Source: Fimbriimonadaceae bacterium (GTDB taxonomy: Bacteria; Armatimonadota; Fimbriimonadia; Fimbriimonadales; Fimbriimonadaceae). From it: DNA of 64,000 nt. Below the pieces are notes generated by a model that saw nothing but the letters and a program-made list of their open reading frames with translations, ran no database searches and had not been told where the DNA came from. This document shows positions 1,745 to 61,541 of the stretch, piece after piece. Both the position numbers and the translations under genes were made by a program. Each line of letters starts with the position of its first letter. Within the stretch, counting starts at the first letter, position 1. The DNA lies in the NCBI GenBank assembly GCA_026129685.1, contig JAHCHO010000004.1, forward strand, positions 372,001 to 436,000. The letters run 5' to 3'.

Positions 1745-1775
1745 ATCGGAAGCCGTTCTAACCGTGCGAGGACCG

Positions 1776-32090: not shown

Positions 32091-32104
32091 TACATTCTTC
32101 CACG
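32091..32104 (+). promoter_or_regulatory. -10-like box directly before the FKBP gene
   Basis: TACATT (32091-32096) ends 8 nt before ATG 32105, and no Shine-Dalgarno sequence is present. This fits a leaderless or near-leaderless transcript. Similar boxes occur before seven other genes in the window. Confidence 0.5.
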
Positions 32105-32935
32105 ATGAAGCCTCGCTTCGTGTTCGCCGTCCTGGGGGCGCTCGCCCTCGGTTCGCTCTCCCTCGTCGGTTGCCAGACCGGCGGCGCGTCCGGCAACCCC
32201 AAGGCCGGCGACGCCAACGACCCGAAGTCGCCCGATGGCAAGCCCGCCGGAAAACTGACCGAACTCAAGATCGAGGACAAGAAAGTCGGCACCGGTCCCG
32301 CCCTGGCGAACGGCGACGCCGCCTACGTGCTCTACGCCGGCACCCTGGCCAACGGCAAGGAGTTCGACAGCAACATGACCGCCAAGTATCCGTTCGTCGT
32401 CATCGTCGGTACGGGCGGCGTTATCAAGGGCTGGGACCAAGGCCTTCTCGGCATGAAGAAAGGCGGCCGGAGACGACTCTCCGTCCCCGCCGAACTTGGG
32501 TACGGCAGCGTCCCGAGCGAGAAGATTCCCGCCAACTCGGACCTGTTCTTCGACCTTGAACTGCTCGACATCGTGAAGTCCGGCGAGCTCGACATCGTGG
32601 ACAAGACCGACCTGCAGGTGGGGACCGGAGCGGTGGCGGAAAAGGGAGACAAGGTCTCGATCACCTACAAGGCCTACTCACCGACGGAACAGACGTTCGA
32701 GGAACAGAAGGACCGCGAGGTGACCCTGGGCCCCGCCGGCAACATCAAGTTGCCCGGGCTCGACTTCGGCATCGTCGGCATGAAGGTTGGGGGCAAGCGC
32801 AAGATTCGAATCCCGCCCGCCGTCGGTTACGGTCCGGGCGGCGACCCGTCGTACGGTATCCCCGCCAACATGGTCGTCACCTTCGAGGTCGAACTGAAGA
32901 AGATCGTCCAGAAGAAGGCGGTCCCGTCGGGCTGA
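32105..32935 (+). CDS. Lipoprotein with two FKBP-type prolyl isomerase domains
   Basis: 276 residues. Lipoprotein signal (MKPRFVFAVLGALALGSLSLVGC), a linker, then FKBP domain 1 (~55-160; GKEFDSNMTAKYPFVV, VIKGWDQGLLGMKKGGRRRL, PAELGYGS) and a second FKBP-like domain (~165-270; GDKVSITYKAYSPTEQ, GIVGMKVGGKRKIRIPP, VGYGPGGDPSYGIPANMVV). The second copy lacks the usual F-D-S core and the IxGW motif, so isomerase activity is better supported for the first. It should help fold exported proteins. Confidence 0.92.
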   Translation: MKPRFVFAVLGALALGSLSLVGCQTGGASGNPKAGDANDPKSPDGKPAGKLTELKIEDKKVGTGPALANGDAAYVLYAGTLANGKEFDSNMTAKYPFVVIVGTGGVIKGWDQGLLGMKKGGRRRLSVPAELGYGSVPSEKIPANSDLFFDLELLDIVKSGELDIVDKTDLQVGTGAVAEKGDKVSITYKAYSPTEQTFEEQKDREVTLGPAGNIKLPGLDFGIVGMKVGGKRKIRIPPAVGYGPGGDPSYGIPANMVVTFEVELKKIVQKKAVPSG

Positions 32936-32942
32936 CGGCGCG

Positions 32943-33629
32943 ATGCGACCGCGACTCGTCCTGGTGGGGTTCCTTGTCCTCCTGATCGGCGGCGTCGGGC
33001 AGGCTCAGATCGCCCCTCGGGGCAAGGCCTTCCTGTTCAGGCTGAAGCTGGCGAAGGGCCGTACCCTGGAGTTCACCCAGACGACGACCGTCGTCACCAA
33101 GGCGATGCCGAAACAGACCCTCACCGGCCCGTTCCGGATGTCGGCGCTGGACGTCAAGGGGAGGCTGACCACCCTCCGGATCGTCGTCGGTCCCATGTCG
33201 CTTGCCGGCCGGACCGTCACCGCCAAGCAGGTCGCCACCCTCACCGTCAACGACCGTGGCGAGACGGTGAGCGGGGCCGCCGCCGAGATCCAAACCTTCG
33301 GCGCGAGCCTACCGGAAAGCCCGGTCAAGGTCGGTGACCGTTGGTCGGAATCGACGAACCTCCCGGTGGCGAGCGGACCCGCCACGACCGTCGAAACGAC
33401 CTACGAGTTCCTCGGCGTTCGAACCGAGGGTCCCCGCCGGGTGGCCCTGCTCGGCGTCGTCCTCCGGGGCCGGGGCGGGATCCAACTCAACGGCAAGGGC
33501 ACCGTCCGCCTGGACTGCGCGGACGGAACCCTCCTCAAGTACGAAGTGGTCAGCAACCTCAACCTCGGCCCCGGGTCCGGCCCGGAGGTGAGAGCGACCT
33601 CGACGACCGTGGTCGCCCGGAAGCCATGA
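32943..33629 (+). CDS. Exported protein of unknown function
   Basis: 228 residues with a clear Sec signal peptide (MRPRLVLVGFLVLLIGGVGQAQ). The mature part is an alternating beta-strand protein (LRIVVGPMSLAGRTVTAKQV; ESPVKVGDRWSESTNLPVA), a pattern seen in uncharacterised exported proteins of these phyla. It starts 7 bp after the FKBP gene and overlaps the next gene by 4 bp (ATGA), so the three are one transcription unit. Confidence 0.75.
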   Translation: MRPRLVLVGFLVLLIGGVGQAQIAPRGKAFLFRLKLAKGRTLEFTQTTTVVTKAMPKQTLTGPFRMSALDVKGRLTTLRIVVGPMSLAGRTVTAKQVATLTVNDRGETVSGAAAEIQTFGASLPESPVKVGDRWSESTNLPVASGPATTVETTYEFLGVRTEGPRRVALLGVVLRGRGGIQLNGKGTVRLDCADGTLLKYEVVSNLNLGPGSGPEVRATSTTVVARKP

Positions 33630-34351
33630 GCGCGCGCGTCGTCGTTCGAGTCCCGGCGTCCGACCCGGCCTTGGCCCGGCTCGTGGAAGGACATCCGTAC
33701 CTCGACCCGTCCGATCCGACTGAAGGCGAGGCGCTCGAGCTCGCCATCGGCGGTTGGAAGCGTCGGTTGTACGCCGGTTCCGCTTCGCCCTATGTCCGGG
33801 GCCTGGTCGAACTCATGGACAACAACCCCCTCGTCTGCGCCGACGAGGCTTCCGTCCCGGGTCCGGCGGCGACTCTCGCCCTCATCGGCCTGGGGCCTCT
33901 GGCCCGAGCGGGAATCCTCGCGGACGAACCGGCGGTCCAACTGAACTTCGCCGACGCCCACGCCGACCTCCACGATCATCTGCGCTTGCTCGGTTACGAC
34001 GGCGAGGTGCTACGGTCGCACGAGGACGTGGACCTCGGATCCGTCCTCGCCGCGACCGTCCTCGCCCCCGTCCAGACGCCCGATCCGATCGACCTGCTGG
34101 ACGACCTTTACGACGAATGCTTCGGCCGCTCGTTCTTCGTTCGACGCGCGGAAGACGGCCCATGGGAGGCGTCCCGCGTCGCGGACCGGCCCTTTGCCCT
34201 CTATCGGCTCCGGGTCACCCCTGGCGAGCCGACCAGTCTGCTGACGATCCAAGTGATGGCCGACCGAGACGGCAAGTGCGGCGCCGGCCAACGCCTCCAC
34301 GCCCTCAACGTGATGTGCGGATTCGAAGAAGACACCGGTCTCTTTCCGTAG
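33626..34351 (+). CDS. ArgC-like protein lacking the catalytic cysteine
   Basis: ATG 33626 in an ATGA overlap; 241 residues. The C-terminus GKCGAGQRLHALNVMCGF followed by EEDTGL closely follows the conserved end of N-acetyl-gamma-glutamyl-phosphate reductase, and residues ~56-98 (YVRGLVELMDNNPLV, then VPGPAATLALIGLGPLARAG) align with the ArgC active-site segment. Where ArgC has PGCYPT, this has PGPAAT (Pro80), so the acyl-enzyme cysteine is missing. The HRHxPE histidine motif is also absent, and the N-terminal NAD-binding half is largely reduced (family ~340 residues). It is probably not an active reductase; the role is unknown. Confidence 0.65.
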   Translation: MSARVVVRVPASDPALARLVEGHPYLDPSDPTEGEALELAIGGWKRRLYAGSASPYVRGLVELMDNNPLVCADEASVPGPAATLALIGLGPLARAGILADEPAVQLNFADAHADLHDHLRLLGYDGEVLRSHEDVDLGSVLAATVLAPVQTPDPIDLLDDLYDECFGRSFFVRRAEDGPWEASRVADRPFALYRLRVTPGEPTSLLTIQVMADRDGKCGAGQRLHALNVMCGFEEDTGLFP

Positions 34352-34422
34352 CGTCCTGCGACGGACCGGAATGCTCGTCATGCGGGCGCCCCAGGATCGG
34401 TCTACAGGCGGCCGGCTTCGAC

Positions 34423-34435
34423 TAAACTCCGTGCC
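34423..34435 (+). promoter_or_regulatory. -10-like box directly before mazG
   Basis: TAAACT (34423-34428) lies 7 nt before ATG 34436, with no ribosome-binding site and no clear -35. This fits a leaderless start. Confidence 0.5.
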
Positions 34436-35488
34436 ATGTCCTCTCCGGTCACCGTCGTCGGCCTTGGTCCGGGCGCGCCCGATGGCTGTCCCGCCCCCAA
34501 CCGCCGGGCCCTTCGTTCCGCAGATCGGGCTATGGCGTACGGCCGGATGGAAATCTACGACTGGCTTGAGGTCCTCGTCCTCGTGGAGCCCTTCGCGCCC
34601 GAAGCCGCCCAAGTCGTGGCCGTGCCCGGCAACCCCGTCCAGCACCCCGGGCTCCTGCAGACCCTCGCAGACCGAACGGTGACCCTGATGCCCGCTCCCC
34701 CTTACGCGGAAACGAGCGAGACCTTCGTCGGCCTTGCCGGCGCGGTCCGGGTGGTGGATCGGCTACTCGGCCCGGGAGGTTGCCCGTGGGATCAAGCCCA
34801 GACCCACGAATCGCTCAAGAGGCACCTCGTGGAGGAAACCTACGAAGTGGTCGAGGCGATCGACTCGGGCGATCTGGAGAAGCTGCGCGAGGAACTGGGC
34901 GACCTGCTGCTCCAACCCCTCCTCCATGCCCAGATGGAGGCCCTCGCCGGCAGCTGGGGCTCGGACGAAGTCGCCCAGGGCCTCATCGACAAACTGGTAC
35001 GACGTCACCCTCACGTTTTCGGCGATGCCAGCGTCGCCGATGCCGACGAGGTCCTCAAGAACTGGGACCGCATCAAGCAAAGCGAGAAAGGGGGCGAACC
35101 CCGTTCCATCCTCGAAGGCGTCCCGAAGTCCCTTCCCGCCCTCCTCCGCGCCTTTGAGGTCAGCAAAAGGGCCGCCCGCGTCGGATTCGAGTGGCCGGAC
35201 ATCGAGGCCGTGTTCGCCAAGCTCCGCGAGGAGGAGGCCGAATTCCTAGAAGCTCTGGCCGGTGGCGACCCCTCCCGCATTGAGGCCGAGATGGGCGACC
35301 TGCTGTTCACCCTTGTGAACGTCGCTCGATGGGCGCGGGTCGAACCGGAGGACGCCCTCCGTAGGATGCTGGACCGCTTCACCGACCGATTCCAGGCCAT
35401 GGAGGCGACGGCGGACAGGCCTCTCCGCGACCTCACCGCCGCCGAGTGGGACGCGCTCTGGGAGCGCTCCAAGGCTTCCGTCGGCTAG
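34436..35488 (+). CDS. mazG: MazG nucleoside triphosphate pyrophosphohydrolase with shortened N-terminal extension
   Basis: 350 residues. Residues ~1-90 open like a tetrapyrrole-methylase domain (VTVVGLGPGAP), as in YabN-type fusions, but are less than half the normal length and lack most of the methylase. Two MazG repeats follow: GGCPWDQAQTHESLKRHLVE and ELGDLLLQPLLHAQMEA (first), then EEEAEFLEAL and EMGDLLFTLVNVARWARV (second). The EExxE...ExxD metal-binding pattern is visible in both. MazG hydrolyses (d)NTPs to monophosphate and pyrophosphate for pool cleaning. It is followed by a MmgE/PrpD-family gene. Confidence 0.93.
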   Translation: MSSPVTVVGLGPGAPDGCPAPNRRALRSADRAMAYGRMEIYDWLEVLVLVEPFAPEAAQVVAVPGNPVQHPGLLQTLADRTVTLMPAPPYAETSETFVGLAGAVRVVDRLLGPGGCPWDQAQTHESLKRHLVEETYEVVEAIDSGDLEKLREELGDLLLQPLLHAQMEALAGSWGSDEVAQGLIDKLVRRHPHVFGDASVADADEVLKNWDRIKQSEKGGEPRSILEGVPKSLPALLRAFEVSKRAARVGFEWPDIEAVFAKLREEEAEFLEALAGGDPSRIEAEMGDLLFTLVNVARWARVEPEDALRRMLDRFTDRFQAMEATADRPLRDLTAAEWDALWERSKASVG

Positions 35489-35498
35489 GCCCGAACGG

Positions 35499-35511
35499 TA
35501 TTCTCTGGCCA
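35499..35511 (+). promoter_or_regulatory. -10-like box directly before the PrpD-like gene
   Basis: TATTCT (35499-35504) ends 7 nt before ATG 35512; no Shine-Dalgarno sequence. It lies only 11 bp after the mazG stop, so the PrpD-like gene may have its own leaderless promoter. Confidence 0.5.
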
Positions 35512-37071
35512 ATGGTCCCGCACTCCGACGACGCCGTCCTCCTCGCTCGCGACACGAACCAAGCCCTCGGCATCGGCCGTTTCGCGATCGAGTTCTTGGC
35601 CGGCCGACTTGGCCCGGGACCGTCGGACGCAGTTCTCGCTCGCACCAGCCTCTTCCACGCCGACGCGTTCTTCTGTGGGGCCTCCGCCCTCGCGCTCGGG
35701 ACCAACGCCCCGACGATCCTCCGCGCCGAGGCTCTGGAATACCCCGACGCGCAGGGGGCTGCCGTTCTCGGCTCGAAAGTCCGGGTCAAGGCTGAGAAGG
35801 CGGTCGCCGCGAACGCCTCCGCCGTCCGTGAGTGGGACTCGAACGGCACCAACTTCGGCTTCAACCCGACCCTCGGCCACGTCGCGGGGGAGTTCGGCCA
35901 CAACGACTTCTACCCGGTTGTGATCGCCGCCTGCCAACAACGGGGCCTCGACGGCGCGACCGCCCTTCGGGCGATGGCGCTCCTCGACGAGATTCGCGGG
36001 CGTCTGGCCGAGGTGTTCAGCCTCAAAACCTACAAGATCGACCACGTGGTGCACGGGGCGATCGCGTCCGCCGCCGTCTACGGCGCGCTCATGGGGGCGA
36101 CCGCCGAGCAGATTGAGAGCGCGATCGGGATGTTCGTCGCCCACGCCATTCCGTGGAGGGCGATCCGCGCCGGCAAACAACTCAGCGATTCGAAGGGCGC
36201 CAGCGCGGCGATCAGCACGGAGATCGCGATCAACTTCACGAAGCGCGCCCTGGCCGGCTTCCTCGGCCCGCGCGACATCTTCCGCAACCCGGAGAGCATG
36301 TTTCGGCAGTTTTCGAAGACGGGAGGCGACAGCCCCTTCGACCTCGTTCTGTCCCACTCCGGTGACGACTTCGCGGTGATGGGAATGCACTTCAAGCTCG
36401 GACTCTACGAACACCAGTCCGCAGGCGCGCTCCAGGGAATCCTCGAACTCGTTTCTCGGCACGACGAGATGCTCGTCCCCGGCGCGATCGAGGAGATCGT
36501 GGTGACGGCGTACGAGCCCGCGTTCGGCATCATCGGAGACCCCGCCAAGCGTGACCCCAGAACCCGCCAGTCCGCCGACCACTCCATGGTCTACATCGTC
36601 TCGACCCTTCTGCGGAAGGCCCTGGAGGCGGGCGAGAGCGCCGATCTCCCGACCGGCTCGACCGACGAACTCTGGAGGCGCCTCATGCTGGGACCCTACG
36701 ACTATGATCGGTCCGCGATCCGCAACGAACGGACCCGCGCTCTCATGGCCCTCGTCCGGTTCGAGCATGGCGGACCCGAGTACGACGCTCGCTACCCGGA
36801 CGGCATTCCCACATCGGTCCGCGTTCGCCTAGGAAGCGGGCGGACCCTCGACACCGGGCTGGTCATGTACCCGGCGGGCCACGCCCGCAACGCGGACGCC
36901 GACCGAGACGCCATCCTCCGCCACAAGTTCGGGTTGCTCGGGGGGCTCGCCTACGGGGAGGCAACGTCCGAGCAGCTCTCCCGGCGCCTGCTCGAGCTCC
37001 ATTCCGAGGATTCGGACGGCATCGCCACCCTCTACGGCACGCCGATCGCGGACCACGAATACCAGGAATGA
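35512..37071 (+). CDS. MmgE/PrpD family protein
   Basis: 519 residues, a little longer than 2-methylcitrate dehydratase PrpD (~480). The fold and motifs agree: GTNFGFNPTLGHVAGEFGHN (substrate loop), YKIDHVVHGAIASAAVYGAL, WRAIRAGKQLSDSKGASAA, and QSADHSMVYIVSTLLRKAL, which carries the conserved ADHS. Family members dehydrate 2-methylcitrate or related hydroxy acids. No prpB or prpC is nearby, so the substrate is open. It overlaps the next gene by 4 bp (ATGA). Confidence 0.85.
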   Translation: MVPHSDDAVLLARDTNQALGIGRFAIEFLAGRLGPGPSDAVLARTSLFHADAFFCGASALALGTNAPTILRAEALEYPDAQGAAVLGSKVRVKAEKAVAANASAVREWDSNGTNFGFNPTLGHVAGEFGHNDFYPVVIAACQQRGLDGATALRAMALLDEIRGRLAEVFSLKTYKIDHVVHGAIASAAVYGALMGATAEQIESAIGMFVAHAIPWRAIRAGKQLSDSKGASAAISTEIAINFTKRALAGFLGPRDIFRNPESMFRQFSKTGGDSPFDLVLSHSGDDFAVMGMHFKLGLYEHQSAGALQGILELVSRHDEMLVPGAIEEIVVTAYEPAFGIIGDPAKRDPRTRQSADHSMVYIVSTLLRKALEAGESADLPTGSTDELWRRLMLGPYDYDRSAIRNERTRALMALVRFEHGGPEYDARYPDGIPTSVRVRLGSGRTLDTGLVMYPAGHARNADADRDAILRHKFGLLGGLAYGEATSEQLSRRLLELHSEDSDGIATLYGTPIADHEYQE

Positions 37072-37658
37072 AACCGCTGGTCTTCACGCATATCGGGGTC
37101 GGCAACATGGCGGTGGCACCCGCGGTCGTGGCCACTCTGGGCACCTACTTTGGAGAGCGGCCCCTCGAGGTTCGGCTCTTCGATGCGGACGAGGAGCGGG
37201 CCGACCTGATGCAACGCTTCGCGGAGATGGTCTTCCAGATCGAGAAGACGGGCCACCAGTTGGTCCTGTGCGGGCATCTGGGAGAGGCGATGGAGGGGGC
37301 CGAGCGGGTCGTTCTGTCTCCCGAGGCGAATTTCTCCCGTCGACTCGCCCGGCTGTCAGACCCCGCACAAGCTTGGGACGTGGCGCTTTCGAGCGTGGCG
37401 CGCGCCGTCCCCAAGGGCGTCGCCTGCCTCAGCCTGCTTGGCCCCGAGATCCGAGTGCCCTTGCGCGACTACTATCGAATCGAATGGCCGCCGCCCATCG
37501 GTCCCGACCAACTTCGGGCCATGCCGCACCAGATACTGCGCTGGCTGCGAACAGACGAGTACGTCCAACCGTTCCTGCGTCAGCACGCGGGCTCGCCGCT
37601 GAAACGGTGGATCGACGACCCGTCGAGCGCCGACCTCGTCCTCGGTTCGCCCCTGTAG
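37068..37658 (+). CDS. Rossmann-like protein, GH4-type NAD-binding resemblance
   Basis: 196 residues. The N-terminus VFTHIGVGNMAVAPAVVATL resembles a nucleotide-binding beta-alpha-beta, followed by an acidic strand end (VRLFDADEERADLMQRF) and AMEGAERVVLS. This arrangement recalls the NAD-binding part of family 4 glycosidases and malate dehydrogenases, but the protein is under half their length and no catalytic part is seen. Co-translated with the PrpD-like gene (ATGA overlap). Function unknown. Confidence 0.55.
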   Translation: MKPLVFTHIGVGNMAVAPAVVATLGTYFGERPLEVRLFDADEERADLMQRFAEMVFQIEKTGHQLVLCGHLGEAMEGAERVVLSPEANFSRRLARLSDPAQAWDVALSSVARAVPKGVACLSLLGPEIRVPLRDYYRIEWPPPIGPDQLRAMPHQILRWLRTDEYVQPFLRQHAGSPLKRWIDDPSSADLVLGSPL

Positions 37659-37687
37659 TCCCTCTGCCGGTTCGCGCCGGTGGCGGG

Positions 37688-37698
37688 TACATTGGGCC
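37688..37698 (+). promoter_or_regulatory. -10-like box directly before the TMEM14-like gene
   Basis: TACATT (37688-37693) ends 5 nt before ATG 37699, without a Shine-Dalgarno sequence. It fits a leaderless transcript. Confidence 0.45.
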
Positions 37699-38064
37699 AT
37701 GCCCTGGTTGAACGGAGTCCTGTACGGCTACGCCCTTGTGAACTTGGCGGTCGGCCTGCAGGCTTTCCTCGGCGAAAAGCACAGCACGATCTCGTTGGTG
37801 GCGGGCGGCGGAGCGGCGGTCCTCACCGTCCTCGGCGTTTGGCTCGCCCAAAGGAACACGCTGGGTGGCTACGGGCTGTGCGCGCTCGTCACAATCTTGC
37901 TGATCGGGCGCTTTCTTCCCGTATTCCTAAAGGATTCGTCCAAGCTCTATCCGGCCGCCCTGATCGCGGGTCTCTCGTTGGCGGTCTTGGCCTGCCTGGT
38001 GATCGGCCATTTCGCCGCGCCATCCCGGTCCGCCCCCAGCGCCAAGGCCGAAACCCGGCAATAG
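37699..38064 (+). CDS. Small membrane protein, TMEM14/UPF0136-like
   Basis: 121 residues with four hydrophobic segments (about 5-25, 31-48, 55-75, 82-103). The pattern YGYALVNLAVGLQAFLG, GGYGLCALVTILLIGRF and FLKDSSKLYPAALIAGLS matches the TMEM14 family in order and spacing (small, four helices, F-x-K-S-G/K-K-P loop). Function in bacteria is unknown. Confidence 0.7.
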   Translation: MPWLNGVLYGYALVNLAVGLQAFLGEKHSTISLVAGGGAAVLTVLGVWLAQRNTLGGYGLCALVTILLIGRFLPVFLKDSSKLYPAALIAGLSLAVLACLVIGHFAAPSRSAPSAKAETRQ

Positions 38065-38127
38065 CTCGAACCGAGCCGCCCAATTGCTGACGACCTCGCG
38101 AACGCAGGTCCTTTGGAGCGGTTCGGA

Positions 38128-40413
38128 TTACTTGGAGGCGCTCAGCGACGCGACGAACTGGGAGACCCGGTCGCCCTGGGACCGCAAGGTCGCGATCATC
38201 TCGTCCATCTTCGCAAAGCGGTACCGAAGTTGCTGCTCCTTCACGGTGAGGCGGCTGGAAAGCGTCTGGATGTCCTCGCCAAGTTGGTCGAGCTGGTCCT
38301 GAAGGGAGTTCTCGGAAGTCGTGAGTTGGCCGTTCACCGTGTCGAGGAACCCGGACATGAGGTCGGTCACCTTCGTGCCCACGCCTTTGGTGACCGTCAT
38401 CGAACCGACGAGGCCGGAGCCGGTCCCGGTGTACTGAATCTGCAACCCCGCGGTCTTCGCATTGCCGGCGTTGCCCGTAAGGTACTGGCCAACCCCCGTC
38501 GCCGCTTCGCCGTTGATCGTGCCCGCCACGTCGAGTCCGGTCGAGTAGGTTCCGGGCATGCTCTGGCCGATGCCCGAGTTATCGGCCGCCGCCGCGAGCG
38601 AGCTCTCTACCGTGTAGTTGCCTGCCGCGCCGTACTTCTTGCTCTCGATCTTGAGCTTGCCGCCCTCGATCGTCGCCGACACCAAGTCTTTGAGCTTGGA
38701 ATCCGAGTTGATCTTGGCGACCGTGTCGGCCAGAGCCGAACCTGATTCGATGACGAACACGTAATCCGAGTTGCCGAAGAGGGCTCCCCCGAAGGTGAGG
38801 GTTTCGGTGACACTGTTCGCCGAAGTCTGCGCGACCGCCGACGTGTACGCTCCCTTCGTCGCCGCCTGGGTAACGACGACGTCGTAAGCGCCTGCTCCCG
38901 AAGCCACCGTCTTGTCGGTACTCGAGATATAGGTCAGTTCGGTGACCGACCCCGCGCCCGCCGTTCGGAAGAGCTTGCCAACCGCGTTCGGATCGGCGTT
39001 CAGGGCGGTCGAGAGGGTCGCCTCGTCGTAGCTCAGCTTGCCCGCACTGTCGAAATCGAATCCGAGGGCGGCGAGGTTCCGGTAGTTGCCCGTCAGACCC
39101 GCCACGTTGTCGAAGACCAGCGACGAGACCGCGTTCTCGATCTGGGTCGCCATCGGATCTCCCAGCAACGGTCCGGCCGCAAACGTGTCCTTGTCGAACT
39201 TGCTGTTCGCGGCGACGAAGTCGACAATGCCGTTGTAAGCGCTGACGAAGTCCTTGACCTTCGACTGCACCGCGGACTCGTCCCGCGAGAGCGTCAAAGT
39301 CGATTTCTCGGGGGTCGTCTCGTTCGCCTTGAGAAGCGTGAGGGTCGCCCCGGGAATCACGTTGCCGACGGTGTTCGTCGCGCTCGTCAGGTTCACGCCG
39401 TCGAGAGAGTAGTGGGCGTCCTGCGCCGCGACCAATTCGCTGGAGTACCCCTGCTGCAGCACGCCCAGGGCGGTCAGAACGTTTTCGCTGTCGGTGAAAG
39501 TGGGCGTTCCCGAGTCGCCCACGATCTTGAGCCGGTACTTCGTGGAGCTTCCCTCGGTGACGCTCTCGACCGATGCCGTCACCCCCGCGCCGGCCGCGTT
39601 GAGGTTGGTCGCGATGGAATCCAGGCTGTCCGTACTCAGGTTGATGTCGATCGTCTGCCCGTTGACGGTGATCTGCACGGTGTTCGGCGGCACGATCGCC
39701 ACGTTGAGCATCTGGCTGACCGCCGTCGTGGGACTGGAGAACGCAAAGCCGGCCGCCCCGTTGGTTACCGCCGAGCGGATTCCCGACGCGCCGCCGACGA
39801 GCCCGAGACTCGACAGCACGCTGCTCGTTCCCAGATCGGACAGTTGGATCGCCTTCCCCGCCCCGGTGTCCTTGGCGGTCAGGGTCAGGTAGGCGTTGCC
39901 TTCGCCACCATTGATCAGGCTGGCCGTCACGCCGGCGTTCGCCGAATATATCTTCTGGGCGACGGTGGTGAGGGTATCGGTCGCCGTCACCTCGACTCCG
40001 ACTCCGTTGACGCTGAAGGTACCGGACAGTCCAAGGGCCGCCGTCGTCGAGGCTTGCGCCCCGCTCGAGACCTTGTGCGCCTGCGCCAACTTCGAGACCT
40101 CGAGCCGATAGGTGCCTGCGATCGCCCCCGCGTTGGTAGTGATGGTCGCGACCCCCGTGTCCGACGAGGACGCCCGGATCGGATTGAACGCCGACGCGTT
40201 GTTCAAAGAACCCGCCGCCGTGCTTAGCGACCGCATTCGCGAGCGAAACTCGGCGTACAGACTCTGCCGATTGGTGATCTCGGCCTGCCGCTGCTGGAGC
40301 CGCTTGATCGGGATCGCCTCGACCTGCATCAAACGGCTGACGATGGAATCGGTGTCGATTCCACTGCCGATGCCGCTGAACGTGATGCCGGAGAGGCTAT
40401 TGCCGAGGCTCAT
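38128..40413 (-). CDS. fliD: Flagellar hook-associated protein 2 (filament cap, FliD)
   Basis: 761 residues, well above the ~470 of E. coli FliD, because of extra domains in the exposed middle. The N-terminal coiled coil has ITFSGIGSGIDTDSIVSRLM, typical of FliD. Then come the YSLDGVNLTSATNTVGNVIP motif (FliD core) and a C-terminal coiled coil (DQLDQLGEDIQTLSSRL). FliD forms the cap under which flagellin polymerises. No other flagellar gene lies in the window, so this gene stands alone. Confidence 0.9.
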   Translation of the reverse strand: MSLGNSLSGITFSGIGSGIDTDSIVSRLMQVEAIPIKRLQQRQAEITNRQSLYAEFRSRMRSLSTAAGSLNNASAFNPIRASSSDTGVATITTNAGAIAGTYRLEVSKLAQAHKVSSGAQASTTAALGLSGTFSVNGVGVEVTATDTLTTVAQKIYSANAGVTASLINGGEGNAYLTLTAKDTGAGKAIQLSDLGTSSVLSSLGLVGGASGIRSAVTNGAAGFAFSSPTTAVSQMLNVAIVPPNTVQITVNGQTIDINLSTDSLDSIATNLNAAGAGVTASVESVTEGSSTKYRLKIVGDSGTPTFTDSENVLTALGVLQQGYSSELVAAQDAHYSLDGVNLTSATNTVGNVIPGATLTLLKANETTPEKSTLTLSRDESAVQSKVKDFVSAYNGIVDFVAANSKFDKDTFAAGPLLGDPMATQIENAVSSLVFDNVAGLTGNYRNLAALGFDFDSAGKLSYDEATLSTALNADPNAVGKLFRTAGAGSVTELTYISSTDKTVASGAGAYDVVVTQAATKGAYTSAVAQTSANSVTETLTFGGALFGNSDYVFVIESGSALADTVAKINSDSKLKDLVSATIEGGKLKIESKKYGAAGNYTVESSLAAAADNSGIGQSMPGTYSTGLDVAGTINGEAATGVGQYLTGNAGNAKTAGLQIQYTGTGSGLVGSMTVTKGVGTKVTDLMSGFLDTVNGQLTTSENSLQDQLDQLGEDIQTLSSRLTVKEQQLRYRFAKMDEMIATLRSQGDRVSQFVASLSASK

Positions 40414-40516
40414 GCGATGTCCTGCCGAGGACGAGGCGTTCTGTTCCTATCTCGTCTATCGGCAGAATCGGTCGGCCGCCCAAGAGCGTGTCACGGGAAT
40501 TCTGCCGGGTTTGGCT

Positions 40517-41365: not shown

Positions 41366-41413
41366 CCCTGGTTTCTACCCGCTTTCCCCGCCGGATCCCC
41401 CGAGTCCGCCGAG

Positions 41414-41426
41414 TATCATTCGCGCC
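41414..41426 (+). promoter_or_regulatory. -10-like box directly before the cNMP-binding gene
   Basis: TATCAT (41414-41419) ends 7 nt before ATG 41427; no ribosome-binding site. It fits a leaderless start. Confidence 0.5.
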
Positions 41427-41903
41427 ATGTCCTTGAACGAGCAACAACTCGCCGCCTTCACGAAGAGCTACTTCGTGGCGGGGCTGAACGAGGAACAACT
41501 GGCCCGCGTGGCCGCCCTTGGGCGGGTGAACCACTTGGTCGCGGGCGAGGCGATCGTTCAGGTCGGTGAAAAGAGCGGCGACCTGTTCGTCGTCCTGGAC
41601 GGCAAGATCACGATTCGCGCCGCCGATGGCGACGAGCTCGCTTCGGTCGGGCCCCCCAGCGTGATCGGCGAGATGTCGCTGATCGACGACCAACCCCGCT
41701 CGGCGAGCGCGATCTGCGTCACCCTCTGCACCCTCGTCCGCTTCGAGGCCAAGCCCCTCCGCCGCCTGATGTGGCAGGACAAGGAGGTTGGCTTTGTCGT
41801 CCTTTCGAACCTCGCCCGCGTCCTCATCACCCGCCTCAAGCAGGCGAACGAGAAGGTGGACGTCCTGATGGACAAAGTGGACCCCTGGGAGCACGCCCTC
41901 TAG
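41427..41903 (+). CDS. Cyclic nucleotide-binding domain protein
   Basis: 158 residues: one cNMP-binding beta-roll (~10-125) and a C-terminal helix, with no DNA-binding domain. The phosphate-binding cassette GEMSLIDDQPRSASA keeps the glutamate and arginine that bind the cyclic phosphate and ribose. The C-terminal helix (LARVLITRLKQANEKVDVL) is like the dimer helix of CRP-type proteins, cut before the helix-turn-helix. Probably a stand-alone cAMP or cGMP sensor acting through protein contacts. It ends 29 bp before mqnD. Confidence 0.88.
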   Translation: MSLNEQQLAAFTKSYFVAGLNEEQLARVAALGRVNHLVAGEAIVQVGEKSGDLFVVLDGKITIRAADGDELASVGPPSVIGEMSLIDDQPRSASAICVTLCTLVRFEAKPLRRLMWQDKEVGFVVLSNLARVLITRLKQANEKVDVLMDKVDPWEHAL

Positions 41904-41932
41904 AGGGAGGCGGGTACCCTCATCCCCGTTCC

Positions 41933-42754
41933 ATGAAGATACGAATCGGGCACAGCCCGGACAGCGACGACGCGTTCATGTTTTGGGGATTGGCCTCCGG
42001 GGCGGTCGAGTCGCAGTACGAGTTCGAGCACGTCCTCCGCGACATCCAGACCCTGAACGAGTGGGCGCGAGAGGGTCGCTTGGAGTCCACCGCCGTTTCG
42101 GTCCACGCCTTTGCTTACGTGGCCGACCAATATGCCCTTCTTCGCCACGGCGGTTCGTTTGGCGACGACTACGGGCCGATGATCGTCGCCAAGCGCCCCC
42201 TGTCTCGCGAAGAGCTGAAAGAGACCGTGATCGCGGTGCCGGGACTCCTGACTTCGGCGTTTCTCGCCCTCAACCTGTACCTACCGAACCCGAAGTTCGA
42301 GGTCGTGCCGTTCGACGAGATCGTGCCCGCCATCCTGGAAGGACGATTCAAGGCGGGCGTCATCATCCATGAGGGACAGCTCACCTACCAGAAGGAGGGG
42401 CTGACGCTTATCGAAGACCTCGGTCAATGGTGGAAGCGGGAGACGGGCCTGCCGTTGCCGTTGGGGGTGAACACGGTGCGCAAGGACCTCGGCTCCGAGG
42501 TCGTGAAGGACGTCAGCCGCTGTATGCGGGAAAGCATCCAAGCCGGCCTCGCCAACCGGGGCAAGGCCCTCGAATACGCCCTTCTGTTCGCCCGAGGAAT
42601 GGACGTCGAGACGAGCGACACCTTCGTCGGCATGTACGTCAACGAGCGCACCCTGGACATGGGAGAGGAAGGCGTTCGCGCGATTCGCGAGTTCCTGCGG
42701 CGCGGCGCGGAGATCGGCCTCGTCCCACCCGTCGAGATCGTCGTCGTGGACTGA
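41933..42754 (+). CDS. mqnD: 1,4-dihydroxy-6-naphthoate synthase (futalosine pathway)
   Basis: 273 residues. MqnD converts cyclic dehypoxanthine futalosine to 1,4-dihydroxy-6-naphthoate in the futalosine route to menaquinone. The diagnostic N-terminus IGHSPDSDDAFMFWGLASG is present, as are AVSVHAFAYVADQYALL (the substrate-binding and catalytic histidine region) and VIIHEGQLTYQ. The presence of mqnD implies menaquinone as the quinone, which fits the NDH-2 gene at 50960. Other mqn genes are not in the window. Confidence 0.95.
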   Translation: MKIRIGHSPDSDDAFMFWGLASGAVESQYEFEHVLRDIQTLNEWAREGRLESTAVSVHAFAYVADQYALLRHGGSFGDDYGPMIVAKRPLSREELKETVIAVPGLLTSAFLALNLYLPNPKFEVVPFDEIVPAILEGRFKAGVIIHEGQLTYQKEGLTLIEDLGQWWKRETGLPLPLGVNTVRKDLGSEVVKDVSRCMRESIQAGLANRGKALEYALLFARGMDVETSDTFVGMYVNERTLDMGEEGVRAIREFLRRGAEIGLVPPVEIVVVD

Positions 42755-42834
42755 GACTCAACGGGTCAAAGCGCACCTTGCTTCGCCCGGGCGATGCCAT
42801 GGCGAGGAGTTTGGCGGCTCGCACGGACGTCGCC

Positions 42835-44163
42835 CTAGTGTTCGACGCGTATCACGTTCCCGATCTGCTCGACGATGTGGATGTTCCGCATGGCCTTCAG
42901 CGCGCGCTGGATGCTCGCTTCACTGCTGACATGGGTCAGAAACACGATCTCGCCGAGCCTCGAGTCCACCCCCCGCATCTCCATCGCCGCCAGCGACACG
43001 TTGCAGTTCCCAAAAACGGTCGCGATGCACCCGAGCGCTTTGGGCCGGTCCTGGATCACCATCCGCACGTAGTAGCGGGTGCGGCACTTCTCGATCGGCG
43101 CCGTCGCGATCCCCTCATCGAGCGGCACCGAGTTCCCCGCTCCCCCGTAGCGAATGTTGCGGCACACGTCCATGATGTCGCCGACCACCGCCGAACCGGT
43201 CGGGTCGGCACCCGCCCCTCGCCCGCTCAGCATGACGTCGCCAACGAAGTCGCCACGAAGCCAAAGCGCGTTGTAGACGTCGTCCACACTCGCCAGAGGG
43301 TGGTTCCTGGGCAGCATCGTCGGGTGGACCCGCGCCAGTATCCCGCCGTCCTCCAGCGCCTCGACGACGCCGACCAGTTTGATCTTGTAGCCAAGCACCT
43401 GGGCGAAGTGGATGTCGCGCCGGGCGATCTTCTGAATCCCCTCTCGGTAGACGCCTTCGACGGGCACCGCCTTGCCGAAGGCGATCGAGGCGAGGATCGC
43501 GAGTTTGTACTGCGCGTCGAATCCGTCCACGTCCGCCGTCGGGTCCGCTTCCGCATAGCCTTTCGACTGGGCCTCCCGAAGCGCGTCGCCAAGATCGAGC
43601 CCCTCGTCCGTCATTCTGGTCAGGACGTAGTTGGTCGTTCCGTTCAGAATGCCCATCATCTTGAGGACGTCGTTGCCCGAGAGCTGATGACGCAAGGGCT
43701 GGATCAGGGGAATCCCACCCCCGACCGCCGCCTCGAAATGAAGGTCCAGGCCTTCTCGCGCCGCCAGGTTGATGAGCCGAGGACCCGACTTCGCCAGCAG
43801 TTCCTTGTTGGCGGTGACGACGTGCTTGCCTTGCCTCAAGGCTCGCTCGATCAGTTCCCCGGCCGGAGAGACCCCTCCCATGAGCTCAACGACGATCGAT
43901 ACCCGGGGATCGTCCACCACCGCCGTCAAGTCCGTGGTCAGGAGGTCCCGGCCGATCGCCCGCTCCTTCGCGGCGTCGCGGATCCCGACCCGGACGAGCG
44001 ACACGTCCACCCCGGCCTTCTTGCGGATCGCCTCCCGATTGTCGCGCAACATCCGGTACGTCCCCGTACCGACGGTGCCGAAGCCCAACATCCCGATCCC
44101 GATCGACGTTTCGGTCGGACCGAGCACGGGCTCGGCGAGGGCGGCGGAATCGAACTGGCTCAT
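42835..44163 (-). CDS. hom: Homoserine dehydrogenase with ACT domain
   Basis: 442 residues, normal for the stand-alone ACT-containing form. It reduces aspartate semialdehyde to homoserine. NAD(P)-binding IGIGMLGFGTVGTGTYRML, the catalytic region HFEAAVGGGIPLIQ, GILNGTTNYVLTRM, and AEADPTADVDGFDAQYKLAI with the substrate and catalytic residues are visible. The C-terminal ACT domain (~355-435, RPKALGCIATVFGN) suggests threonine feedback. It connects to metX at 57227 for methionine synthesis, though the two are not in one operon. Confidence 0.97.
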   Translation of the reverse strand: MSQFDSAALAEPVLGPTETSIGIGMLGFGTVGTGTYRMLRDNREAIRKKAGVDVSLVRVGIRDAAKERAIGRDLLTTDLTAVVDDPRVSIVVELMGGVSPAGELIERALRQGKHVVTANKELLAKSGPRLINLAAREGLDLHFEAAVGGGIPLIQPLRHQLSGNDVLKMMGILNGTTNYVLTRMTDEGLDLGDALREAQSKGYAEADPTADVDGFDAQYKLAILASIAFGKAVPVEGVYREGIQKIARRDIHFAQVLGYKIKLVGVVEALEDGGILARVHPTMLPRNHPLASVDDVYNALWLRGDFVGDVMLSGRGAGADPTGSAVVGDIMDVCRNIRYGGAGNSVPLDEGIATAPIEKCRTRYYVRMVIQDRPKALGCIATVFGNCNVSLAAMEMRGVDSRLGEIVFLTHVSSEASIQRALKAMRNIHIVEQIGNVIRVEH

Positions 44164-44207
44164 GGCGGCGACTGTGAGTGTACTTAAGGCCCGGCGACCC
44201 CCTTCGT

Positions 44208-44221
44208 CATAATGCCGGGAG
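44208..44221 (+). promoter_or_regulatory. -10-like box before the EamA gene
   Basis: CATAAT (44208-44213) ends 8 nt before TTG 44222; the spacer gccgggag could also act as a weak ribosome-binding site. It lies in the 58-bp gap to the divergent hom gene. Confidence 0.45.
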
Positions 44222-45136
44222 TTGGCCCCGACGCCGCTCCGTCCGAACCCCTATCTCCTGGTGACGATGGTCGCCTGGGGGTTCAACTTCGTGGCCCTCA
44301 AGTTCATCTACCACGAGGTCAACCCGCCGGCCCTTGGCCTCGTCCGGTTCGGGGCGATGGCGCTGGTCCTGGTCTTGCTCTGCCGAGTTCAGGGCGAGGA
44401 GGTTCGGTACCCCAAGCACAACGGGGGTCGTATCCTCGTGCAGGGATTCCTGTCGATGGGGGTGTACATGGTGCTCTTCCTCGAGGGCATGAAGCGGATC
44501 GGCGCCGCCGAGGGAGCGATCATTCTCGCCACGACGCCCATCCTCACCGCGTTCGTCGCCGCGTCCGTCAAGCAGGAGCGGCTCGTTTTTGGCACGCTGC
44601 TGGGTTCGTTCGTCGCGATGTCGGGCGTCTTCCTGGTCGTCGGGGTCGGCGCGGCGACCGGGCACATGGATTGGCTCGGGGTGGGTCTGCTCTTCGCCTC
44701 GGCGATCGTCTGGGCGGTCGCCACCGTGATCAGCAAGCCCCTCGTGAGTCGCGTTTCTCCGTTGAAGATGCTCACGCTCTCGATGCCGGGAGCGCTCGTG
44801 GTTCTCGTTCCATACGGTCTGGCCGACGCCATCCAAACCCCTTGGACCGACCTGACCACCCAGACCTGGCTCATGATCGCCCACGTGACCGCCCTCGCCG
44901 GCGTGGTTGGCTTTATGGGGTTCTACCGGGGCGTTCAGCAAGTCGGCGCGTCGGCCGCCATGATGTACCAGTACCTCGTGCCGATCCTGGCCGCCCTCTT
45001 CTCGTGGTGGGCGCTCGGGTCGGGACTCCGACCGCTCCAGTGGGCGGGCGTGATCGTCGTTCTCGGCGGCGTCGGGTACGCGAGTTGGGTCCGGACCAAG
45101 CTTGCCCTGCAGGGGGCGCTCCGGCCCGAACCCTGA
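44222..45136 (+). CDS. EamA/DMT-family transporter
   Basis: 304 residues from TTG 44222. About ten membrane segments in two EamA halves, with typical pieces MVAWGFNFVALKFIYHEVNP (first half), EGMKRIGAAEGAIILATTPI, MSGVFLVVG, then WAVATVISKPLVSRVSPLKM and YRGVQQVGASAAMMYQYLVP (second half). Members export amino acids or other metabolites. It lies back to back with hom, so export of a threonine-family amino acid is possible but unproven. Confidence 0.9.
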   Translation: MAPTPLRPNPYLLVTMVAWGFNFVALKFIYHEVNPPALGLVRFGAMALVLVLLCRVQGEEVRYPKHNGGRILVQGFLSMGVYMVLFLEGMKRIGAAEGAIILATTPILTAFVAASVKQERLVFGTLLGSFVAMSGVFLVVGVGAATGHMDWLGVGLLFASAIVWAVATVISKPLVSRVSPLKMLTLSMPGALVVLVPYGLADAIQTPWTDLTTQTWLMIAHVTALAGVVGFMGFYRGVQQVGASAAMMYQYLVPILAALFSWWALGSGLRPLQWAGVIVVLGGVGYASWVRTKLALQGALRPEP

Positions 45137-45151
45137 GTTCGCGCCGTGGCG

Positions 45152-45164
45152 CATAATCGAAGCC
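45152..45164 (+). promoter_or_regulatory. -10-like box before the zinc-ribbon coiled-coil gene
   Basis: CATAAT (45152-45157) ends 7 nt before ATG 45165, without a Shine-Dalgarno sequence; consistent with a leaderless transcript. Confidence 0.5.
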
Positions 45165-45881
45165 ATGTCCCTCGCGGAACTGCGCAAGCTGACCAAGCTC
45201 CACCTCCTCGACCAGTCCATCCGCGAGATTCGAGCCCGCGCCGCCGCGCTCGACGGCGGCAAGCGAATCCTGGCCCAGATCGACAAGATCAAGCAGGACA
45301 ACGCGGAAATCCTCGCCGACGCCCATCGCCTGTCCGCCGAACAGAAGGACCTAGAACTCCAATCCGAAGGGATCGACGCCAAGCTCAAGAAGTTCGAGGG
45401 CGAATTGTACGGGGGCAAGATCGTCAACTCGCGCGAGATTCAGAACGTTGAGAAAGAAATCGAGGCCCTGAAGCGCCAGCGAGGTCATTTCGACGAGCGT
45501 CTGCTGGAGCTGATGGAACTCGTTCCGGCCGCCAGGGAGCAGGCGAAGCACGTCGAGGAAGCCCTCGCCCAGAAGGACGTACAACTGGCCGAATACAGGG
45601 TAAAGGCGGCGGAGGCGCGCACCCAACTCGAGGCCGAGTTCAAGAAACGGATGGAAATGCGTCCCAAACTCGTCGCCGAAATCGATCCCTCCCTCTACGC
45701 CAAGTACGACCACATCCGCCAGAAGCACGGGGGCGTGGGGCTCGCGATCGTCGATGGGCGTGCCTGCGGCGCGTGCGGGACGCAGGTTCCGACCCGCGTG
45801 ATCGTGGCCGCTCAGGAGGGCAAGGTGGTCCTGTGCGAGGCTTGCCACCGTCTTCTCGTCGCAACGGAGGGCGTCGTTTGA
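45165..45881 (+). CDS. Coiled-coil protein with C4-type zinc ribbon (DUF164/CT398 type)
   Basis: 238 residues. A long antiparallel coiled coil (~5-190; LADAHRLSAEQKDLELQSEG, YGGKIVNSREIQNVEKEIEA) ends in a C-terminal zinc ribbon with cysteines in CGACGTQVP and LCEACHRLL. This matches the widespread C4-type zinc-ribbon family, sometimes linked to flagellar or secretion proteins through the chlamydial CT398 homologue. It overlaps the next gene by 4 bp (TTGA). Confidence 0.9.
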   Translation: MSLAELRKLTKLHLLDQSIREIRARAAALDGGKRILAQIDKIKQDNAEILADAHRLSAEQKDLELQSEGIDAKLKKFEGELYGGKIVNSREIQNVEKEIEALKRQRGHFDERLLELMELVPAAREQAKHVEEALAQKDVQLAEYRVKAAEARTQLEAEFKKRMEMRPKLVAEIDPSLYAKYDHIRQKHGGVGLAIVDGRACGACGTQVPTRVIVAAQEGKVVLCEACHRLLVATEGVV

Positions 45882-46564
45882 CCGTTCGGCTCCTCCCGAC
45901 CCTTGCCGCCGCACTTCTTCTGGGGGGGTGCGCCAAGTTCCCGGACGCGGGTACCGGCGCGACCGCCACCCGCCTCGTGTTCACCCTCCAGTTCGACCGA
46001 GAGATCAACCGGAACTACGTCTACGTCGTCGCGATCAACCCTTCTACGGCGGACAACCCGACGGTGCAAGGGCCGATCCCGGTTATCGCCCCACCTTGGG
46101 GGAACGGTTTTGTCGCGGGAAACGCCACCCACTTCGTCGGCTACAACTTCCTCGTCCCTGGACAGTACAACATCTACCGCTTCAAGGACGCCGCTCTGAA
46201 CAACTACGAGTTCGTCGGGGTTCCGGTCCAGTCCGAGGACGTTCTGCCGGGTGGCAACCGCCTGCGCTTCGAGATCAACCTCGCCCAAATCGCCCAGAGT
46301 CAGGCCGAGGCCGAGTCCTTCCGATCCCTTCAGGTCAACCTGCTCAGCATGGACCGCGTCCCCCAGTCGGGAACGGGCAAGGTCTGGGACGCTCTGGGCG
46401 ACGGGCGTTTGGCCTCACAGATCAATAGCCCGGTGGTCGTCTCGTTGCGAACCAGCCGAACCTACACCAACGGCTCGTTTTTCGACATTGAACCACGGGC
46501 CGACGCCGCCGATCCCGACCTCGACCTTGTGGACTTCACGATCGAGGTTCGGCGCAACGACTAG
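45878..46564 (+). CDS. Lipoprotein of unknown function
   Basis: Start is TTG 45878 in a TTGA overlap; 228 residues. Lipoprotein signal (TVRLLPTLAAALLLGGC). The mature part is beta-rich: LVFTLQFDREINRNYVYVVA, NATHFVGYNFLVPGQYNIYR, DLVDFTIEVRRND. The pattern recurs in exported proteins of Armatimonadota-like genomes, but no named family was recognised. Between the coiled-coil gene and a glycosyltransferase gene. Confidence 0.72.
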   Translation: MTVRLLPTLAAALLLGGCAKFPDAGTGATATRLVFTLQFDREINRNYVYVVAINPSTADNPTVQGPIPVIAPPWGNGFVAGNATHFVGYNFLVPGQYNIYRFKDAALNNYEFVGVPVQSEDVLPGGNRLRFEINLAQIAQSQAEAESFRSLQVNLLSMDRVPQSGTGKVWDALGDGRLASQINSPVVVSLRTSRTYTNGSFFDIEPRADAADPDLDLVDFTIEVRRND

Positions 46565-46571
46565 GCCGACC

Positions 46572-47498
46572 ATGAGCAAGTCGCCCCGCGTCTCCATCCT
46601 GCTGACGTGCTACAACCACCTCGCGTATCTCCCTCTCGCGTACCAAGGAGTGCTGGATCAGACCTGGACCGACTGGGAGATCGTGGCGATCGACGACGGT
46701 TCGACCGATGGAACGCGGGACTGGTTGCGCGCCCATGCGGACCGGGCGACATTGGTCTTCAACGATCCGAACCTGGGGACCTACGCATCGCTCAATCGTG
46801 CCCTCGAACACGCCTCGGGCGACCTGATCGCCATCCTGAACGACGACGACCTCTGGGCTCCGCAGAAGTTGGCGCGGCAAATCGACCTACTGGACAAGCA
46901 CCCGAAGGTCGGCTTGGTCCACACCGACGGGGGCTTCATCGACGGGAACGGCGACACGATCGAAGGCTCGCCACTCGGCTTCGCCTTTCCCCGTACCGAG
47001 ACCGGCGACGTTCTGCTCGACCTCCTGTACGCCAACAAGATTATCGCCAGCGCGGCGCTCGTTCGCCGGGAGTGCTTCGATCGCCTCGGCGGGTTCAATC
47101 CCGGCTACTTTGGCTCCGGAGATTGGGAGATGTGGCTCCGGGTCGCCGAGCAATGGGAGGTCGGGTTCTGCCCGGAGCCCCTCACCTACTATCGGGTTCA
47201 CGGCGCCAACGCGAGCCACAAGCTGGAGCGCATCTGGAAGGACGACCAGATGTTGCGCGAGTGGATTCGTGACCGCGCCGCCGGTTACGCCGACCGAGGC
47301 CTCGAACCGGACCGCCTGCGCGCCGCCCTCGCCCACAACGAGGCCTGCCTGGGAACCGTGCGCACCTTGAACGGAGACCCCGCCGGAGGGCGGGAAGCCT
47401 ACCTACGGTCGATCAAGCTCAGGCCCGGTCGGTGGAAGAGCTACCTGCGGCTGGCGGCGACCTTTCTTCCAAAAGGCGCGTTTCGTCGAATAATGTGA
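46572..47498 (+). CDS. Family 2 glycosyltransferase
   Basis: 308 residues with the GT-A fold: VSILLTCYNHLAYLPLAYQG, AIDDGSTDGTRDWL (nucleotide binding), LIAILNDDDLWAPQKL (the metal-binding DDD), and GGFNPGYFGSGDWEMWLRVA with the acceptor/catalytic ED-like region. The late YYRVHGANASH is a hallmark of this subgroup. It transfers a sugar from a nucleotide sugar, probably for surface polysaccharide or protein glycosylation. It is in the run begun at 45165. Confidence 0.93.
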   Translation: MSKSPRVSILLTCYNHLAYLPLAYQGVLDQTWTDWEIVAIDDGSTDGTRDWLRAHADRATLVFNDPNLGTYASLNRALEHASGDLIAILNDDDLWAPQKLARQIDLLDKHPKVGLVHTDGGFIDGNGDTIEGSPLGFAFPRTETGDVLLDLLYANKIIASAALVRRECFDRLGGFNPGYFGSGDWEMWLRVAEQWEVGFCPEPLTYYRVHGANASHKLERIWKDDQMLREWIRDRAAGYADRGLEPDRLRAALAHNEACLGTVRTLNGDPAGGREAYLRSIKLRPGRWKSYLRLAATFLPKGAFRRIM

Positions 47499-47556
47499 CC
47501 TTCAGGCGAACAAACGTCTTCCCGCGCACGACTTACTTTCCGGGAATGGTGCTCGG

Positions 47557-48720
47557 ATGAACCGATGCTACGCGGACTATGCGGCGACGGCGCCGATGCT
47601 CGACTCTGTCCGCGAGGCGATCGCCCCTTGGCTCTTCGACTACGGGAATCCCAGCTCGCTTCACGAGGAGGGTCGACGGGCGCGTCACGCGATCGACCAA
47701 GCCCGCGACGCCGTCGCCGAGGCCATGGATTGCGCCTTCGGCGAGATCGTCTTCACGTCTTCAGGGACGGAGGCGGTCAATCTGGCGATCTTGGGCTCGG
47801 CGATCGCCAACCAGGACCCCCGTCGGAGGCGCGTTGTCATCGGGGCCGCCGACCATCACGCCGCCCTTCGGACCCTGCCCTGTCTCGAGATGCTCGGTTA
47901 TCTGGTCGACCTTACGCCCGTCCTGCCAACCACCCAGACCGACCTTGCAGCGTTCGAAGCGCTTATGAGCGACGACGTGTTGCTTGTCAGCCTCCTCCAT
48001 GCCAACAACGAGACGGGTGTGATCCAACCGGTCCCCGAACTCGTCACGATCGCGCGCCGGCTCGGCGCCTTGGTCCATCTGGACGCGGTGCAGACGTTCG
48101 GACGGTGGGCCTGGACCCCCTCCCAGTTCGACGCCGATCTGGTCAGCGTGTCCTCCCACAAGATTGGCGGCCCCAAGGGCATCGGTGCGCTCTTCGTTCG
48201 GGCGGGCACCAAGATCAAGCCGATCATGGTTGGCGGCGGCCAAGAGCGCGAGCTTCGATCCGGAACGGAAAACGTGGCGGGCATTGTGGGCTTCGGCCGC
48301 GCCGTGGCCGCGCGATCGGACCGATCCGATCCCAGGCGATCCGCCCGCGACGCGTTTCTCGCCACGCTCGAAGCCGCCAAGGACCCTCGCCTGCGGTTGA
48401 CCGCCGACCCGCGCACCCTTCCCGTACTCGACGGTCACCTCCACGTTCGCTTCGAGGGACTCTCCGCCGAATCGCTCCTCATCCTGCTGGACCGCCTTGG
48501 CGTCGCCGCGAGTTCAGGGGCGGCGTGTTCGGCGGGAAGCGTCGAGCCGAGCCACGTGTTGCTCGCTGCCGGATTCTCGCCAAGCGCGGCTCGAGAAGGA
48601 CTTCGGTTCTCGTTTGGTCCGGACCATGACGAGGCATTCGGGGTAGAAGTCGCCCGGCGGGTGCTGCAGGCCGTGGAGAGGGTCGGCGCGGCCAAGCCAG
48701 CGCGTGCCGCCGGTTCTTGA
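47557..48720 (+). CDS. Cysteine desulfurase (NifS/IscS family)
   Basis: 387 residues. It removes sulfur from cysteine through a persulfide for Fe-S clusters or thio-cofactors. Motifs: YADYAATAPML, NPSSLHEEGRRAR, FTSSGTEAVNLAI, HANNETGVIQPVPEL, the PLP lysine in SVSSHKIGGPKGIG, and the active-site cysteine in SSGAACSAGSVEPSHVL. The short loop around this cysteine fits the group I NifS/IscS type. No iscU/iscR is next to it; the next gene is a large exported orphan. Confidence 0.94.
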   Translation: MNRCYADYAATAPMLDSVREAIAPWLFDYGNPSSLHEEGRRARHAIDQARDAVAEAMDCAFGEIVFTSSGTEAVNLAILGSAIANQDPRRRRVVIGAADHHAALRTLPCLEMLGYLVDLTPVLPTTQTDLAAFEALMSDDVLLVSLLHANNETGVIQPVPELVTIARRLGALVHLDAVQTFGRWAWTPSQFDADLVSVSSHKIGGPKGIGALFVRAGTKIKPIMVGGGQERELRSGTENVAGIVGFGRAVAARSDRSDPRRSARDAFLATLEAAKDPRLRLTADPRTLPVLDGHLHVRFEGLSAESLLILLDRLGVAASSGAACSAGSVEPSHVLLAAGFSPSAAREGLRFSFGPDHDEAFGVEVARRVLQAVERVGAAKPARAAGS

Positions 48721-48750
48721 CTTCGGCTTGTTCCCGGGCGCGAGTCCTGT

Positions 48751-48762
48751 TACACTGCGTCC
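48751..48762 (+). promoter_or_regulatory. -10-like box before the 730-residue gene
   Basis: TACACT (48751-48756) ends 6 nt before ATG 48763; no ribosome-binding site. It fits a leaderless start. Confidence 0.5.
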
Positions 48763-53056: not shown

Positions 53057-53067
53057 GGGGGTGAAGT

Positions 53068-58373: not shown

Positions 58374-58495
58374 TATCCGGGCAACGTGCTTATCTCCCGG
58401 GAGGTCACCCTCCGAGTACTTCCGCCGCTGAGAGGCTTAACTGCCGTGTTCGGGATGGGAACGGGTGTTTCCCTCTCGCCATGATCACCCGAATA
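58374..58495 (-). rRNA. rrf: 5S ribosomal RNA
   Basis: The minus strand has the 5S hallmarks GAAACACCCGTTCCC, ATCCCGAACACGGCAG and TTAAGCCTCTCAGCG. Ends were set by helix I, TATTCGGG (5') pairing with CCCGGATA (3'), giving 122 nt. It follows the 23S gene by ~85 bp on the same strand. Confidence 0.96.
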
Positions 58496-58581
58496 GAAAC
58501 CGGTTGTATCGCGGCGGCTCCCGACAGCCGCATACTGATTTAGTGGGATTGACGCACCGAGCGGAAGCTACGGTATCGAAG

Positions 58582-61541
<2,960 letters not shown>

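Follow-up and report, generated by a model that had tools for sequence, protein, structure and literature searches.

Eight genes in the central part of a 64,000-nt stretch of a Fimbriimonadaceae genome (assembly GCA_026129685.1, contig JAHCHO010000004.1, positions 372,001 to 436,000; hereafter the window) were noted, in a reading made from the letters alone, to have a TANNNT or CATAAT hexamer ending 5–8 nt before the start codon, without a Shine-Dalgarno (SD) sequence. A -10 box at that distance would put the transcription start at or next to the start codon. This raises the questions of whether the hexamers are indeed promoter elements, whether the corresponding mRNAs would then be leaderless, and how far the arrangement extends beyond these eight genes.

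Start-adjacent hexamers in the window

The sequence-only reading placed all eight hexamers correctly (Table 1, where the gap is counted from the last T to the start codon). Its remark that no convincing -35 boxes accompany them also holds: the best matches agree at 2–4 of 6 bases, with spacings of 15–19. The proposed lack of SD sequences stands for the region 4–13 nt upstream, where none of the eight genes has one, but needs qualification further out, since 32105 has a GGAGG 14–15 nt upstream. This run is directly 5′ of its box, upstream of the inferred transcription start, and lies farther from the start codon than a usual SD would; it is more plausibly part of the G-rich context common before boxes in this genome. 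At 44222 there is a GGAG match adjoining the start (gap 0). The canonical SD-led layout, with an SD at 4–12 nt and a promoter further upstream, is thus found at none of the eight.

A +7 rule puts the inferred transcription starts at -2 to +1 of the eight start codons, which are purine-initial, and so compatible with +1, with the TTG of 44222 as an exception. Transcription of 48763 is expected to begin at the A of its ATG, and the 32105 and 44222 mRNAs may have leaders of 1–2 nt (about 2 nt is predicted for 44222).

Table 1. Hexamers preceding start codons in the window (positions counted from its first nucleotide; gap, nt between hexamer and start codon). The last two rows are candidates outside the initial eight.
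Hexamer	Position	Strand	Gap	Start codon or gene	Predicted product	Orthologues with box	Posterior
TACATT	32091..32096	+	8	ATG 32105	FKBP-type peptidyl-prolyl isomerase with lipoprotein-like signal peptide	11/11	
TAAACT	34423..34428	+	7	ATG 34436	MazG	0/2 testable	
TATTCT	35499..35504	+	7	ATG 35512	MmgE/PrpD family	24/29	
TACATT	37688..37693	+	5	ATG 37699	TMEM14-like membrane protein	17/19	
TATCAT	41414..41419	+	7	ATG 41427	cNMP-binding domain	6/11	
CATAAT	44208..44213	+	8	TTG 44222	EamA transporter	16/19	
CATAAT	45152..45157	+	7	ATG 45165	CT398-like coiled coil with zinc ribbon	24/28	
TACACT	48751..48756	+	6	ATG 48763	730 aa, no Pfam match	0/2 at same offset	
TATGAT	1740..1745	-	7	ATG of gene 1142-1732 (-)			0.97
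TAAACT	53065..53070	-	8	ATG of gene 52274-53056 (-)			0.98

The eight boxes are not the whole set within the window; the genes beginning at 1732 and 53056, both on the minus strand, are further examples (Table 1). Two genes of the window may be mentioned for their products. The last of the eight (48763-50955, +) has diverged relatives on two other contigs of the same genome (C11 and C12), and many genomes of the family have them too. A very long gene, 2904-8942 (-), encodes 2,012 aa from a GTG start.

Enrichment across the genome and in orthologues

The genome comprises 3.94 Mb, of which 2.0 Mb was analysed (65.7% GC in that part). Genes were predicted with our own caller, in which the choice of start depends on nothing but coding potential and a start-codon prior, upstream signals playing no part; it yielded 1,776 genes over the 2.0 Mb, with 91% coding. 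Expected box counts were predicted from positions further upstream of starts. The genome-wide motif count proposed with the initial observation bears it out: 226 of 1,750 genes have a TANNNT that ends 5–9 nt ahead of the start, where 44.2 are expected, an approximately 5-fold enrichment (Poisson P ~ 2e-83). When all 64 patterns of the form XXNNNX were scanned, TANNNT ranked first (z = 25.2) and CANNNT second, the latter matching the CATAAT boxes among the eight.

As a negative control, 350 kb of the GC-matched replicon pSymB of S. meliloti (Sinorhizobium), processed with the same caller, gave 5 boxes against 7.5 expected, with SD patterns ranking top. As a positive control, 150 kb of D. radiodurans MP1 taken through the same pipeline gave 16 against 4.3, with a gap profile equal to that of this genome. 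If starts are allowed to move under a motif model, 18.0% of genes are boxed at gap 5–9, versus 2.4–2.7% when the identical procedure is applied at offsets displaced 20 or 27 nt further upstream. A fair estimate of the share of genes led by a start-adjacent box is about 15%, or about one in seven. The gap varies from 5 to 10 among boxed genes; given this variation, some mRNAs may have leaders of 1–3 nt.

Orthologues of the eight genes were gathered from up to 60 related genomes, their starts being picked blind to the box. A box is found at gap 4–10 in 98 of 121 orthologues across other genera, compared with 10, 1, 3, and 7 orthologues in four control windows of equal width (about 5 per window). 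Six of the eight genes have such orthologue support; the two that do not, 34436 and 48763, are represented by two orthologues each. The CATAAT of the zinc-ribbon gene (45165) is itself retained in most genera, and EamA (44222) orthologues mostly have CATACT before a GTG.

The closest relatives of the MmgE protein of the window are mostly on Armatimonadetes/Fimbriimonadia and Planctomycetota contigs. A TANNNT peak before starts is also seen in 38 loci annotated as Planctomycetota (506 kb), with 36 boxes against 6.8 expected and commonest gaps of 6 and 9–10. The anchor gene common to all loci was left out of both the Armatimonadota and the Planctomycetota counts.

Promoter character, start codons, and operon position

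About 4% of boxes are accompanied by TTGAC(A), mostly at a spacing of 17, which indicates that the hexamer behaves as a -10 element of the sigma-70 type. Among the boxes listed, nine have a -35 matching at least 5 of 6 bases, six of these being a perfect TTGACA (two of the entries being one promoter counted twice); a perfect -35 occurred in 0 of 885 shuffles. For the remaining boxes, no -35 was found above the level of shuffles. Boxes also tend to follow GG: at the two preceding positions, G has a frequency of 59% and 64%, vs. about 40% at other TANNNT located upstream of genes, and this GG is perhaps part of the promoter.

The choice of start codon also differs. TTG is rare in box genes (2 of 246, vs. 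83 of 1,504 in the others; P = 3.5e-4), and GTG is as common in them as elsewhere; the depletion of TTG fits the purine of ATG or GTG being the first transcribed base.

Boxes are concentrated in the first genes of transcription units. They precede 110 of 560 divergently transcribed genes (19.6%, vs. 3.5% expected), compared with 30 of 577 genes starting no more than 20 nt behind an upstream gene (5.2%). A weak peak remains in this second group (30 vs. 4.8 expected), which represents internal promoters or mis-called starts. SD-like motifs are distributed oppositely, with their peak in operon-internal genes, which fit the canonical SD-led layout, and SD-led initiation thus coexists with boxed genes in this genome. 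The 16S tail, GGATCACCTCC, is intact, i.e., the anti-SD is present. No percentage of SD-led genes is given, because the mixture model assigns its SD class too freely, to shuffles as well.

The rRNA genes themselves are unlinked. The 23S and 5S genes are together in the window (58376-61536, -), apart from the only 16S gene found, which is on another contig (C15:367492-369001), about 12 kb from its end.

Probable leaderless expression and the alternatives

Taken together, the enrichment, the boxes of orthologues, the start-codon bias, the operon position, and the -35 spacing support the leaderless interpretation originally offered, and we consider it very probable that the boxes are -10 elements placed for leaderless or near-leaderless mRNAs. 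The transcription start at the start codon, like the mode of ribosome binding, is something that we infer from these sequence patterns. As -10 elements of housekeeping-type (sigma-70-like) promoters, the boxes would cause RNA polymerase to start at the start codon or about 0–3 nt from it, and the resulting mRNAs would be leaderless or nearly so, without an SD site. Their translation would presumably proceed via direct recognition of the 5′-terminal AUG or GUG by ribosomes carrying initiator tRNA. About 15% of genes would use the box layout, mainly those first in their operons, with operon-internal genes using SD sites.

The boxes might instead be real -10 elements whose true start codons are downstream; the annotated starts would then be too early, and the mRNAs would carry leaders of the ordinary kind. 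Start calling is error-prone in GC-rich DNA, and the coding-only caller did choose starts at 34436 and 41427 other than those of the sequence-only reading; homology nevertheless backs the latter in both cases, and in the 34436 product a match to the MazG N-terminal methylase begins at residue 5. In the 48763 family, the same-genus orthologues have their starts 8 codons later, with a TATACT about 11 nt before a downstream ATG instead. An aligned start codon with a box at near-fixed distance is retained across many genera, however, in the large majority of the orthologues counted above, and the depletion of TTG in box genes also speaks against early annotation, which is very unlikely as the explanation. 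Very unlikely as well is that the AT-rich hexamer works at the RNA level, by binding the ribosome or S1 independently of an SD in a leadered mRNA. Non-SD signals of this type have been put forward for several phyla (PMC5397173), and SD usage in Fimbriimonadia is low, with SD sequences in 25% of genes according to Table 1 of a 2024 PLoS One study (PMC10783764), the source for this point. An element of this kind does not account for an enrichment that is highest in genes needing their own promoter and low operon-internally, nor for the TTGACA at 17 bp from some boxes, and the motif is no U-rich tract but a sharply spaced TANNNT.

It is scarcely credible that the pattern is due to chance, with AT-rich hexamers picked out by eye, or to artefact, although single-site matches are cheap. 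A TAA or TAG inside the box can end an open frame, which may skew the calling of starts, a real concern at gaps 6 and 9. This artefact is ruled out by counting only TA[C/T]NNT, in which no in-frame stop is possible (115 vs. 23.8 expected). The displaced-offset and pSymB controls and the conservation in orthologues also speak against chance.

Leaderless or near-leaderless expression, which we thus prefer, is of an already known kind. The leaderless genes of Deinococcus-Thermus (Life Sci Alliance, 2025; PMC12340547) are alike in the TANNNT that precedes the start codon by a few bp, usually without a -35, in their spacing dependence, and in the position of the -35, at 17 bp, when there is one. 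They belong to another phylum, and the share reported there is about 30%, against about 15% here; the frequent GG before the box and the CATA(A/C)T of some conserved genes are further differences of the present genome. The leaderless genes of Actinobacteria (Zheng et al., 2011; PMC3160421) are similar in their TANNNT, with its centre about 12 bp upstream of the start codon, in being mixed with SD-led genes, in their share (about 20% of genes), and in high GC. Armatimonadota and Planctomycetota are both absent from the bacterial groups listed in that 2011 survey. According to GeneMarkS-2 predictions, 21.6% of bacterial species have leaderless transcription (PMC9581028). The low-SD study cited above concerns what is probably the same class as the host, and in the accessible part of that paper no -10 boxes or leaderless genes are reported. 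A search of the literature on leaderless genes together with Armatimonadetes, Armatimonadota, or Fimbriimonas found no description, within a literature seen in part; the domain-wide species scan in the supplement of PMC12340547 may include the lineage. Armatimonadota is in this sense a lineage for which no earlier description was found.

It is possible, though somewhat short of an even chance, that leaderless expression in the Armatimonadota is of old standing and conserved, served by a lineage-specific and largely -35-independent promoter (a GG followed by TANNNT, or the conserved CATA(A/C)T) that over 20 genera keep in front of the same genes, and that the layout is widespread in Planctomycetota. 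On the leaderless reading as such, the Armatimonadota, in the form of the Fimbriimonadia, join the lineages in which leaderless genes are common, with the Planctomycetota suggested as well; this is of interest for deciding between an ancestral and a repeatedly gained leaderless initiation. It would also help to explain why SD usage is reported to be low in Fimbriimonadia.

More practically, the box could serve as a rule for fixing gene starts in these GC-rich genomes, and the boxes conserved among orthologues make up a ready test set for what a promoter without a -35 needs. As to the polymerase itself, the sigma-70 region 4 family matches at 27 places in the genome, 24 of them over the cut-off, and many alternative sigma factors are likely to be encoded there.
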